A stretch of 53,370 bases of DNA from Planctomycetota bacterium (GTDB lineage: Bacteria; Planctomycetota; JAMOSO01), in contig JAMOSO010000024.1 of NCBI GenBank assembly GCA_027063065.1, forward strand, positions 1-53,370. The letters are read 5' to 3'. Shown here one piece after another: positions 10,442-52,824 of the stretch. Numbering within the stretch: position 1 is the stretch's first letter; every line of letters starts with the position of its first letter. The notes under the pieces were generated by a model that did no database searches, was not told the origin of the DNA, and worked only from the letters and a program-made list of their open reading frames with translations. The translations under genes were made by a program, and so were the position numbers.

Positions 10442-10540
10442 TATACATAGATTTAAAAATAGAACTTTATTTAATGTGAGTTTTAGCCGATAAATTAGAT
10501 TACAGGTTTTTATATATAATTTATAGATGGTGGAGAAGCG

Positions 10541-10840
10541 ATGTCTGATGTGCTTTCACAAGAAGAAATAGACGCCCTTTTAAGTGGTGCAAGCTTTGAT
10601 GACGAGCCTGTAGTCTCATCTAAGTCATCTAAAAAATCAAAACCTGTTGAAGAAATACACATAGATGTCAGCAAGCTTGCTAATATTGGCAAACAAAAAG
10701 TAGTTTCGTCATTACATACATATAAAATAGATGATAACATTTTTTATAGTGAGCCAGGTTCTACGGTGTTACATGATGAAGAGTATGCAAAAGTATTATA
10801 CAATTTTGATCGAGTACGCCATTTTGTAGAGGCGATATAG
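10541..10840 (+). CDS. Small protein with a FliM-type N-terminal CheY-binding peptide
   Basis: The first 17 residues, beginning MSDVLSQEEIDALLSG, match the conserved N-terminus of flagellar switch protein FliM, the peptide that binds phosphorylated CheY. A Ser/Lys-rich linker follows (about 25-36), then about 60 residues (IDVSKLANIGKQKVV and onward) with no resemblance to the FliM or FliN domains. At 99 residues it is far too short to be a switch protein. The start has GGTGGAG upstream. It may be a CheY-binding adaptor, a regulator, or a truncated product that kept the peptide. No flagellar gene is adjacent, though a chemoreceptor lies in the window. Confidence 0.72.
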   Translation: MSDVLSQEEIDALLSGASFDDEPVVSSKSSKKSKPVEEIHIDVSKLANIGKQKVVSSLHTYKIDDNIFYSEPGSTVLHDEEYAKVLYNFDRVRHFVEAI

Positions 10841-18227: not shown

Positions 18228-20951
18228 TTAATAATTAAGATTAGGTCTTAACCATTTTTCGACATCTTCTATGTTTTTTTCGCCTTGTTTGGCAAGGGCT
18301 ATAACTTGATCCTTATCAATTTTGCCTACACCAAAATAATTTGATTCTGGATGAGCAAAATAAAAGCCACTTACCGATGCTGTTGGTAGCATTGCATTGC
18401 TCTCTGTTAGGCTAATACCTGTATGTTTTTGAATGTCCAAAGCTTCCCACATCACGCTCTTTAAGCTATGGTCTGGACAGGCTGTATAACCGGGGGCAGG
18501 GCGAATGCCAGTGTATTCCTCGGCTATTAATTGGTTGTTGTTTAAGGCTTCAGTTTTTGCGTAACCCCAAATATCAGTTCTTGTTTTTTTATGCAGCATT
18601 TCAGCCAATGCCTCAGCTAATCTATCAGCTAAGGCTTTTAATAAAATGGCGTTATAATCATCGTTATCATTTTTATATTTAGCTAATGTTTTTTCTATAT
18701 TAATACCTGCTGTAACACTAAAAATGCCTAAATAATCCAAGACACCACTAGCTTTAGGTGCGATATAATCAGCCAAACTTTGATTGGGTCGTCCGTTTGT
18801 TTTTTTTGCTTGCTGTCTGGCAAATACAAATTTTGCCAAAGGCTTATCACGTGTTTCATCATTGTATATCGCTATGGTTTCATTATCGATTGTATTGGCA
18901 GGCTTGATACTTACAAAACTGTTAGCTTGGATGATTTTTTTATCAATAATATCATCTAGCATTTTATTGGCGTCATTAAAAAGTTTAGTGGCTTCTTCGC
19001 CATATTTTTTGTCAGATAAAATAGCAGGATACCTACCCTTTAATTGCCATGTAGAAAAAAACGGTGTCCAATCAATGTGCTCACGAATAGAGTTAATATT
19101 TATATCTCTATCAATAATGTTTTCGATGGTACTAGGTTTTATGGTGGTATAATTATGCCAATCAATTTGCTTTTTATTTTTTACTGCATCATTATAAGTA
19201 ATTAAAACTTTTTCAGCGCGTCGCTCGTCATATTTTTGCCTTTCTAATTTGTTGGCAGCCTTAATTTTTGCTTTATATTTTGCCCCTGTTTCAGGATTTA
19301 ATAAATCTGCAGCAGCTGGAGCTGATTTTGACGCATCTAATATATGCTGTACAGGTCCATCATAAATATTATCTACTTTAACAGCGGTGTGAATACGGCT
19401 AGTTGTAGCCCCTCCTAATAATAACGGGATATTCATACCTGCTTTTTGCATATCTTTGGCTACATCAACCATTTCATCTAAAGAAGGTGTAATTAATCCA
19501 CTTAAACCTATTATGTCAACTTGAAGTTCTTTGGCTTTAGATATGATTTCTTCTTTAGAAACCATTACGCCAATATCTATTACTTCAAAATTATTACAAG
19601 CTAATACAACGCCGACAATGTTTTTGCCTATATCGTGAACATCTCCTTTAACTGTAGCTAAAAGAATTTTACCTTGCGATGAAGACTCGCCATTTTTTTC
19701 TTCTTCGATATACGGTAATAATTTTGCCACTGCTTTTTTCATCACACGGGCACTCTTTACAACCTGTGGCAAAAACATCTTGCCGGCACCAAATAAATCA
19801 CCTACGGTGTTCATTCCCGCCATTAAAGGTCCTTCGATAACTTTTAGAGTAGGGCTGTATTTATGCCTAGCTTCTTCGACATCTTCTTCGACAAATTCTA
19901 CCAGTCCTTTGACCAAAGCGTGTTCTAGACGTTTTTCTACACTTAATTTACGCCAAGCATTGTCTGTCTTTTTTTCTTTAGTTGTACCTTTGACATTTTC
20001 TGCAAAATCTAATAAGCGCTCTGTAGCATCATCTCGTCTATCTAATAAAACATCTTCTATACGCTCTAATAAATCTTTTGGGATGTCATCATATACTTCT
20101 AGCATAGTTGGGTTTACTATGCCCATATCCATTCCGTCTTTAATGGCATGATATAAAAATGCCGAATGCATAGCTTCTCTAACGGCAGTGTTGCCACGGA
20201 AAGAAAAACTAATATTTGATACTCCGCCACTTACATGGGCGCCAGCTAGGTTTTCTCGTACCCATCTAGTGGCTTGTATAAAATCTATGGCATTTCTACG
20301 ATGTTCGTCCATGCCAGTTGCCACTGGAAATATATTTAAATCAAAAATAATATCCTGTGGTGCAAAATTAACTTTATTACTTGTTAAAATATCATAAGAA
20401 CGTTTTACTATTTCGATACGGCGTTCGTAAGTATCGGCTTGACCTTTTTCGTCAAACGCCATAACGATAGTGGCTGCACCATATTTTTTAATTAATTTTG
20501 CTTGGCGAATAAATTCTTCTTCACCAACTTTTAATGATATGGAATTTACAATACCTTTGCCTTGTATACATTTTAAGCCAGCCTCTATGATTTCCCATTT
20601 TGAAGAGTCGACCATTATAGGGGCTTTGGCTATGTCTGGTTCAGATGCAATTAAATTTAAAAACATTTGCATACTAGCAACGCCGTCTAGCATACCTTCG
20701 TCCATATTTATATCAATAATCTGTGCGCCACCTTCTACTTGATCTCTGGCAATTTGTAAGGCCTCATCGTATGATTCTTCTTTAATTAAACGTAAAAATT
20801 TACGACTGCCTGTAACATTAGTGCGTTCTCCAATATTGATAAAATTTAATTCTGGAGAAATAATCAAAGGCTCTAATCCACTTAAAGTTAAGTAGGGTAT
20901 ATCGTGCCATTTGTATTGGTAATCACCTTTATAGTCTGGATGTAAACTCAT
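18228..20951 (-). CDS. metH: Methionine synthase, C-terminal part (folate, cobalamin and reactivation domains)
   Basis: MetH transfers a methyl group from methyl-tetrahydrofolate through cobalamin to homocysteine. This 907-residue gene carries everything except the homocysteine domain. It has the pterin-binding barrel (about 30-300, [13 protein letters not shown]), the cobalamin cap and Rossmann domain with the axial-ligand motif DVHDIG (His439), and the AdoMet reactivation domain at the end ([15 protein letters not shown], then [19 protein letters not shown]). The homocysteine domain is the separate gene at 20951-21964. Stop and start share one base (TAATG) and this gene has its own AGGAG, so the split looks natural and not like a frameshift. 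Together the parts (1244 residues) equal the usual MetH length of about 1230. Confidence 0.96.
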
Positions 20952-21964
20952 TATTTTTTCTCCTGAAATTGTGGAATGCTGCGCGGTTTATAGCCTTGAG
21001 CTATTCTTGCCATTTCCTTTATATGCTCAGGAGTTGTTCCGCAACAACCGCCCAATATATTTACTAAATCATTTTTTAAATAATTTTCAATATGTACGCC
21101 CATTTGTTTGGCATCTTGATCGTATTCGCCAAACTCGTTTGGCAAGCCAGCGTTTGGATATGCGCTGATACCACATTTGGCGTATTTGTTTAAGATTTCA
21201 AGGTATTGCTGTAATTCTGCGGCACCTAAAGCGCAATTAAGTCCGATAGTTAAAAGTGGCAAATGAGTTAATGAAATCAAAAATGCCTCTGTTGTTTGGC
21301 CAGATAATGTACGACCACTAGCGTCTGTAATTGTGCCAGAAATCATTAAAGGAACTTCTTGTTTTAAGTTTTCCATTGCATTTTGACAAGCAAATAAAGC
21401 AGCTTTGGCGTTTAATGTGTCGAAAATGGTTTCAATTAAGAGTATATCTACACCTGCTTCAATCAGGGCTGTAGCTTGTGTTTGATAGGCGTCAACTAGC
21501 TGGTCAAATGTAATTGCACGGTAGCCAGGATCGTTAACATCTGGAGATAAGGATGCTGTGCGATTGGTGGGCCCTATAGAACCTGCTACAAATCTAGGTT
21601 TATCAGGGTTTTTTGCCGTAAATTCATCAGCAATTTTTTTGGCTATTTTTACAGAATGAATATTTAAATCTCTTACAGCAGATTCTAAGTTATAATCGGC
21701 TTGAGCTATGGTAGTCGCAGAAAAAGTATTGGTTTCTATTATGTCTGCACCAGCTGCTAAGAATTCTGCGTGTACGGATTCTATTACATCTGGACGAGTA
21801 AGGGATAGTAAATCATTGTTGCCTTTAAGTGGGGTGGGGTGATTTTCAAAAAAACCTTTGCGAAAATCATCTTCACAAAGATTGTGGCGTTGAATCATAG
21901 TACCCATTGCACCATCTAAAATCAAAACCCGTTCTAGCATTAATGTTTTAAGTTTTTGGTTCAT
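20951..21964 (-). CDS. metH: Methionine synthase, homocysteine S-methyltransferase part
   Basis: The 337-residue protein is the zinc-dependent homocysteine-binding barrel of MetH as a free-standing gene. The opening [11 protein letters not shown] (about 15-24) and the zinc cysteines Cys244 (GLNC) and Cys307-Cys308 ([11 protein letters not shown]) are intact. It ends in the linker that in single-chain MetH leads into the folate domain. It is first in a two-gene unit with the rest of MetH, joined by a TAATG overlap, and the two chains must associate for catalysis. SD AGGA precedes the ATG. Comparable split enzymes are known in Bacteroidota. A sigma-70 promoter is visible at 22036-22064; I see no cobalamin or SAM riboswitch in the short leader. 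Confidence 0.94.
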
Positions 21965-50998: not shown

Positions 50999-52824
50999 TT
51001 AACTAATTCGTTTTTGATTTGATGTTGAAATTTGTGATGCAGATTTTGAATCCTTAACACCTTCTACCATACGTTTTAAATCATCAACAAAACGCATAAC
51101 CTCAGAAGCTTGTGCGCCCAACTCTTCGGCAGATGCGGCTCCCTCTTCTGAATTTGCCGCATTTTGTTGCGTAACTTTATTCATTTGAGCTACTGTAATA
51201 TTAATTTGCTCAATACCTTTAGACTGTTCATTACTTGCCGAAGCAATTTCGGTAGCAATATCATTAACTTTAGATATTCCTTCAGATATTTGATTTAAAA
51301 CATCGACCACTTCTTTAGTTATTGAAACACCATTATTAGCATTCTCAACCGAATTAGTAATCAAAGATGCTGTACTTTTAGCTGCCTCAGCCGATCTTTG
51401 AGCCAAACTACGCACTTCTTCGGCAACAACAGCAAACCCCTTGCCAGCATCACCCGCACGAGCAGCTTCTACAGCAGCATTTAAAGCTAACAGATTGGTT
51501 TGAAAGGCTATTTCTTCAATTGTTTTAACAATACCAAATGTTTCGTCTGATGATTTTTTAATTTCTGAAATTGCATCTGTCATTTTTAGCATAGATTTAA
51601 AACCTAAATCAGCTGCTTGTTTTGCATCGGAAGCCAACTGTTGCGCATGGTTAGAACTGTCAGTATTTTGTTTAATCATAGATGTAAACTCTTCTAATGA
51701 TGCAGAAGTTTCTTCAAGACTAGAAGCCTGCTCATTGGCACTTTCTGCCAATTCTTGAGATGCCTGTGCAACTTGAGTTGACGCAGAAGTAACCTGATGA
51801 GCGCCATCAGCTAAACCTTCAATACTAACGTTTATTTTATCAATGGATTTACCAGAGATTAACCAAAGCAAAAATACACCTATCAATAACAAAAGCAAAG
51901 ACGGAATAAATGTAACTAATTTTAAATATCTAATATCCGCGTTAATTTCTGCAACATTTAATTGATAAACCATAACAGCGACAGTTTCTCCATTAAAACT
52001 ATGCAATGGAAAAGCCATATAAGTTAAATCATTCATCTTGAAAGAAGTAGGTTTAATCTTACCTTTATCAAAAAATTCATTTGTTACAAGCGCTTCATTA
52101 AAATTGTCCGATTTACTAACAAAAATAAAATCTTTAAATGTCTTGGCGTTCTCCACAATATTTGACATTTTAAATTTAGATGTTATCGGCAATAATTTTT
52201 TATCCATATAAACGGCAATATCTTCTTTATCCAAATTTTTTGTAGATAAATAAATATTGTTCATATTATGAATAGACTCAACATCACCCAAATACTTATT
52301 ATTATCGTCAAATATAGGTGCTAAGCCACGAATCACCAAACCTGATCTGCCAGCCTCAATACCTAAAATAGGCTTTTTAGTTTTGCTAATAGATATAATA
52401 GTATTTCTGAAAGAGCTTAAATCATCACCACGCTTTTTTGACCACATTCTGGCAAATGATCTAGCTGGTGGTAAATGAAAATGAATTTTCTTTTTTTACC
52501 TGTAATTTCTGATGCATTTTTGATAACACTGGCAACATTATCAAATAAAATTTTACTACCCTTTTTGACACTGTTAGTTTCATAGAATTTTTTGTATGCT
52601 TTTTTCACTTCTGGCATACCTGCAAATATACTTGACTCGCTTAATGCTTTTTTGGAAACTCGTTTAATATCTTGATTCACTGTTATAACTTTTAACTGTA
52701 ACCTATCTTCTATTTGTTTATTTTTTGATTTCTCTAATAATGTCGATATTACTATACCAATAACAAAAAATATCACACAGAACATTACAATAGGTGTTAA
52801 TAATATTTTGGTTTTAAATTTCAT
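50999..52824 (-). pseudogene. Methyl-accepting chemotaxis protein interrupted by a frameshift
   Basis: Two overlapping frames make one chemoreceptor of about 600 residues. The N-terminal frame (52824 to about 52497) has a membrane helix (LTPIVMFCVIFFVIGIVIS) and the start of a dCache-like periplasmic domain. The C-terminal frame (about 52490 to 50999) completes that domain, adds a second helix ([18 protein letters not shown]) and the methyl-accepting domain with its invariant hairpin ([19 protein letters not shown] and [14 protein letters not shown]). Adding one A to the run of seven A at 52491-52497 joins the frames and restores a conserved [10 protein letters not shown] segment. No separate HAMP is obvious. 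The break may be real, phase variable, bypassed by slippage, or a sequencing error. Confidence 0.88.
52491..52497 (-). other. Homopolymer at the chemoreceptor frameshift
   Basis: Seven T on the plus strand (A7 on the coding strand), followed by GAAAA. One extra A, or a -1 slip of the ribosome or polymerase on this tract, exactly rejoins the two reading frames. No stem-loop stimulator is evident in the sequence just after it. Confidence 0.75.

Follow-up and report, generated by a model that had tools for sequence, protein, structure and literature searches.

A 99-residue protein with a putative FliM-type CheY-docking peptide and no switch domain in a Planctomycetota genome without detected FliM

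The window analyzed here is a stretch of 53,370 nucleotides (contig JAMOSO010000024.1, positions 1 to 53,370) from a Planctomycetota genome assembly of 2.13 Mb, 71 contigs and 90% completeness. On its forward strand, positions 10541..10840 hold an ORF that starts with ATG and encodes 99 residues followed by a stop, the translation beginning with MSDVLSQEEIDALLSG. A GGAG lies ahead of the ATG in the likely ribosome-binding site region (10526..10540, +), the GC content by codon position (0.52/0.29/0.24) follows the pattern of the adjoining genes, and a paralog is encoded in the same genome. ORF 10541..10840 is a real gene. It is flanked by a nucleosidase-like gene on one side and by dprA on the other, outside any flagellar cluster.

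The upstream region was searched for regulatory elements. The string GCCGATAA lies 55 nt ahead of the ATG, and ATGTGAGTTT..GCCGAT is common to this region and to the region upstream of the flagellin gene. A sigma-28-like flagellar promoter was rejected, as the 4 matches of GCCGATAA in the window were reached in 4 of 100 shuffles. A flagellin-like promoter was likewise discarded: among upstream-region pairs, 5.8% align equally well, and genome-wide the loose pattern has only 3 occurrences compared to 2 for its control. Near the ORF there was no pattern of a sigma-70-type promoter or of a terminator, and the Rfam search returned no element.

According to our in silico analysis, residues 2–17 (10544..10591, +), SDVLSQEEIDALLSGA, form a putative CheY-docking peptide. 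The best NCBIfam match of the protein is to residues 1–46 of the curated FliY model, which aligns from its position 1 in register with the N-terminus of the ORF (E=7e-4), and positions 1–32 of the FliM model TIGR01397 align to residues 3–32 (E=0.014). The first 16 residues differ little from FliM, a near-perfect consensus at the extreme N-terminus. Against a peptide profile built partly from this genome's own copies, the ORF peptide scores E=8.8e-7. The EIDALL motif of FliM and FliY has been described as the docking site for CheY-P, the FliM N-terminus being held in the groove between alpha4 and alpha5 of CheY before the middle domain is engaged in a second step (PMC9126983). When about 190 kb of the genome was scanned with a degenerate motif, written as a regular expression, only 4 of the 532 open frames with 60 residues or more carried it, which places the motif far above chance; these code for the ORF 10541..10840 product, its paralog, FliN, and a FliY-like protein. 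Separately, two phage families of unknown function, PHROG 8774 and 31201, have N-termini that weakly match the docking peptide (E=0.004 and 0.007); a phage protein with a CheY-docking peptide would merit a look.

The peptide is followed by a probably flexible linker, SFDDEPVVSSKSSKKSKPV (residues 18–36; 10592..10648, +), where pLDDT falls below 50 (residues 17–38) and where conservation in the paralog is poor except for FDD. Residues 56–99 (10706..10837, +) form a C-terminal module of unknown fold that is conserved in the paralog. The whole protein matches no Pfam family up to E=1, no sequence in the PDB, and no family beyond about residue 50. The Pfam search found none of the switch domains (SpoA, CheC/CheX, FliM middle). 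This bears out the initial annotation, which had described at this position an ORF with the CheY-binding peptide of FliM and no switch domain; the further claim, that what follows the peptide is a short domain without relation to FliM or FliN, is supported as well. The residues beyond the peptide had not been recognized then, and a Pfam search with the C-terminal 44 residues gave no match up to E=10. A single-sequence AlphaFold model was too low in confidence for a fold search (pLDDT 49, pTM 0.22); it suggests a helix at residues 7–15 and a C-terminus made of a beta-hairpin and then a helix.

The paralog (C41:24049–24324, minus strand) encodes 92 aa with 37% identity to the ORF product, has its own AAGGAG site, and has no flagellar neighbors. 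With this second copy, the label "orphan" given initially is not quite right. The whole-protein alignment scores 109 against a maximum of 60 in 2000 shuffles, and the C-terminal part 94 against a maximum of 44 (2000 shuffles). Two blocks are conserved, the N-terminal peptide and the C-terminal module. In the module, identity reaches 42% (alignment A3), with YS-PGSTV-H-E--AK-L--F---R-F common to both proteins and a two-copy consensus of YYSxPGSTVxHxExxAKxLxxF; no third copy of the module was found in the genome. In the paralog the peptide, LSNKEINLLLNN, is degenerate: the Asp and Ala of EIDALL are gone, and docking may be a property that the paralog does not share. The close likeness of its first 16 residues to FliM would also allow the ORF to be read as the 5' part or relic of a fliM or fliN gene, ending in random sequence; a fliM fragment was the outcome that the initial annotation had named as fatal to its proposal. 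Against this, the paralog keeps the same two-part architecture of peptide and C-terminal module, the codon pattern is normal, and the remainder aligns to FliN no better than shuffled sequences do (179 of 2000 reach the score). On these sequence comparisons we regard a fragment as very unlikely, with next to no weight among the explanations considered.

Both traits of this two-member family, the peptide and the YS-PGSTV-H-E--AK-L--F module, are present in the 99-residue protein. The initial annotation had proposed to look for the same small protein in related genomes; apart from the paralog in the same genome, none was found. Among 392 genomes of the phylum, where the collection offers no further genome of the source's family, order or class, the best other matches were real FliM N-termini or frame noise, and three weak matches (L008, L010, and L012) were rejected as true FliM N-termini. 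A scan of 84,980 GTDB species genomes with short peptide patterns, whose reach is limited to close relatives, returned only FliM or FliN-like N-termini. Phage or plasmid origin was also dismissed, with no tblastn match and no relative in IMG/VR. The two-copy family is lineage-restricted and built on a known docking peptide. In the open-access library searched, outside which most subscription papers lie, we found no description of a switch-less protein with the FliM peptide, which is a weak negative. One further candidate, L003:275–628 from an unclassified MAG, was set aside as a family member: it is a short SpoA/FliN-like protein that starts with MSDVLSQEELDALF, and peptide-bearing FliN-like proteins therefore occur elsewhere too.

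We then compared the protein with known systems. It has in common with the FliM N-terminal region (FliM_N, EIDALL) the N-terminal 16 residues, equally placed with respect to the start codon, but has neither PF02154, the middle (CheC-like) domain, nor PF01052 (SpoA), and measures 99 aa against about 330. FliY combines a CheC/CheX-type phosphatase, SpoA, and an N-terminal CheY peptide; the likeness is confined to its residues 1–46, whereas the phosphatase and SpoA domains are missing from the 99-residue protein, a CheX-like region and SpoA being present in the C43 gene described below. CheZ, which is not a rotor protein, carries a C-terminal CheY-binding helix, a peptide for the same surface of CheY. 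The resemblance to CheZ is by analogy only; our protein lacks the helical bundle and its peptide is N-terminal. CheO of Campylobacter jejuni, which in pull-downs binds CheA, CheZ, FliM, and FliY but not CheY, is likened to it by description and not by sequence, as a non-canonical accessory that connects chemotaxis proteins with those of the rotor (PMC9665402).

The rest of the genome encodes flagella and a chemotaxis pathway. A flagellar cluster at L055 (C27) reads fliK-flgD-flgE-flgE-like-motA-motB-fliL-fliN, and a flagellin gene is present at L056; FliK, FliL, FliN, and flagellin were named by Pfam match, and flgD, flgE, motA, and motB from reading of the translations. There are 57 receiver-domain matches and 11 CheW-domain matches, the latter on several contigs. 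Two of the receivers are stand-alone proteins of contig 48 (at about 36.8 kb and 79–81 kb) that match an E. coli CheY query closely (E 1e-34 and 5e-33), contain SDWNMPNM and YVVKPFT segments, and provide the cognate CheY. A true fliM, which the initial annotation had suggested looking for, was not found by two independent domain searches: the FliM middle domain PF02154 gave no match in the genome, and the SpoA domain PF01052 gave two genes only, fliN and a fliY-like gene. In the loci examined from Nitrospirae and Deltaproteobacteria, fliM precedes fliN and FliN has no peptide, whereas here fliL is directly followed by fliN, at the place of fliM. As the assembly is 90% complete, fliM can be called likely absent from the genome, but no more than that.

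Searched genome-wide, the peptide profile matched four genes at E<=1.5e-5, with seven copies in all, and the next match stood at 0.71; since these copies partly went into the profile, it is this gap that counts and not the E-values. The genes are ORF 10541..10840, its paralog, fliN, and the fliY-like gene. FliN carries MADDNALSQDEIDALLGG (L055:9537–9986, C27), with no fliM between fliL and fliN. The fliY-like gene (C43:1–1257; L056:1–1257) contains at least 4 tandem copies, VSNEEIDALLAG, VSNDDIDALLAG, VSNDDIAALFAE, and VSNDDMAALLGS, spaced by 75, 84, and 84 nt and with 68–78% DNA identity to the reference copy; there may be more, since the contig edge cuts off the 5' end of the gene. On the 3' side of the tandem peptides lie a CheX-like region (E=1.3e-5; 25.5 bits for a Pfam cut-off of 27) and then SpoA. 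We found no description of tandem FliM-type peptides on FliY in the open-access library searched, a weak negative as most subscription papers lie outside it. Every peptide copy found in this genome outside the two-copy family belongs to a C-ring protein, FliN or FliY-like.

Taken together, the 99-residue protein is probably a small cytoplasmic accessory that docks CheY-P, either associated with the C-ring or acting as an adaptor or buffer. That it acts on CheY-P is plausible in view of the genuine CheY, CheW, and flagellar genes of this genome, and from the sequence we infer CheY-P binding, a partner, and an effect on motor bias. Like the FliM N-terminus, the N-terminal peptide would adopt a helical fold within the alpha4-beta5-alpha5 groove of phosphorylated CheY, and a flexible linker would connect it to the C-terminal module, which would bind another partner. 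In a cell without detected FliM, docking peptides would be spread over FliN, the FliY-like protein, and the 99-residue protein, and the latter would add CheY-P docking sites to the C-ring or keep CheY-P on another partner. A peptide that resembles FliM by coincidence, its helix serving another interaction in which CheY has no part, could account for the loss of the Asp and Ala of EIDALL in the paralog; such an explanation is improbable for a protein that begins with a near-perfect FliM consensus and whose genome encodes both flagella and CheY.

Within the CheY-P-docking reading, a role at the motor and sequestration are equally likely, because the other peptide copies found sit on C-ring proteins. 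It is quite possible that the protein is itself a C-ring subunit, its C-terminal module attaching to FliN, FliY or FliG so that the missing N-terminal docking function of FliM is supplied in trans. The failure of two independent domain searches to find FliM, the direct succession of fliL and fliN, and the confinement of the non-family peptides to C-ring proteins all point this way, but the ORF is not in a flagellar cluster and, with peptides present on FliN and the FliY-like protein, a further subunit would be redundant. More tentatively, the protein may be a soluble buffer, sink or adaptor that titrates CheY-P or delivers it to a partner outside the motor, as would suit a free peptide without switch domain, a gene located away from flagellar genes, and a number of receiver and CheW matches, 57 for the receivers alone, that leaves room for cross-talk control. 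A plain sink, however, needs no conserved C-terminal module, and it may have little effect: in E. coli, more FliM lowers unbound CheY-P, yet remodelling compensates motor bias and motor output is robust to the level of free FliM (PMC7064772).

A wider proposal, which we hold to be rather unlikely, is that of a FliM-less switch in which CheY-P docking has been handed to FliN, a tandem-peptide FliY-like protein, and small docking proteins of a new family loading CheY-P in trans onto the rotor or another target. In well-studied bacteria, the N-terminal peptide of FliM or FliY tethers CheY-P to the motor, and the 99-residue protein would be a free-standing carrier of it. If so, the docking step would be separable from the switch and could be redistributed, as in a genome without detected FliM where the peptide has multiplied elsewhere, and this would bear on how the number of docking sites sets motor sensitivity.

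Two other observations were made in the window. A methyl-accepting chemotaxis protein at 50999–52824 (minus strand) is split into overlapping ORFs, 52417–52824 and 50999–52447, perhaps by a frameshift or an assembly error. A cobalamin-dependent methionine synthase at 18228–21964 (minus strand) is encoded by two abutting ORFs of 337 and 907 aa that meet at 20951.
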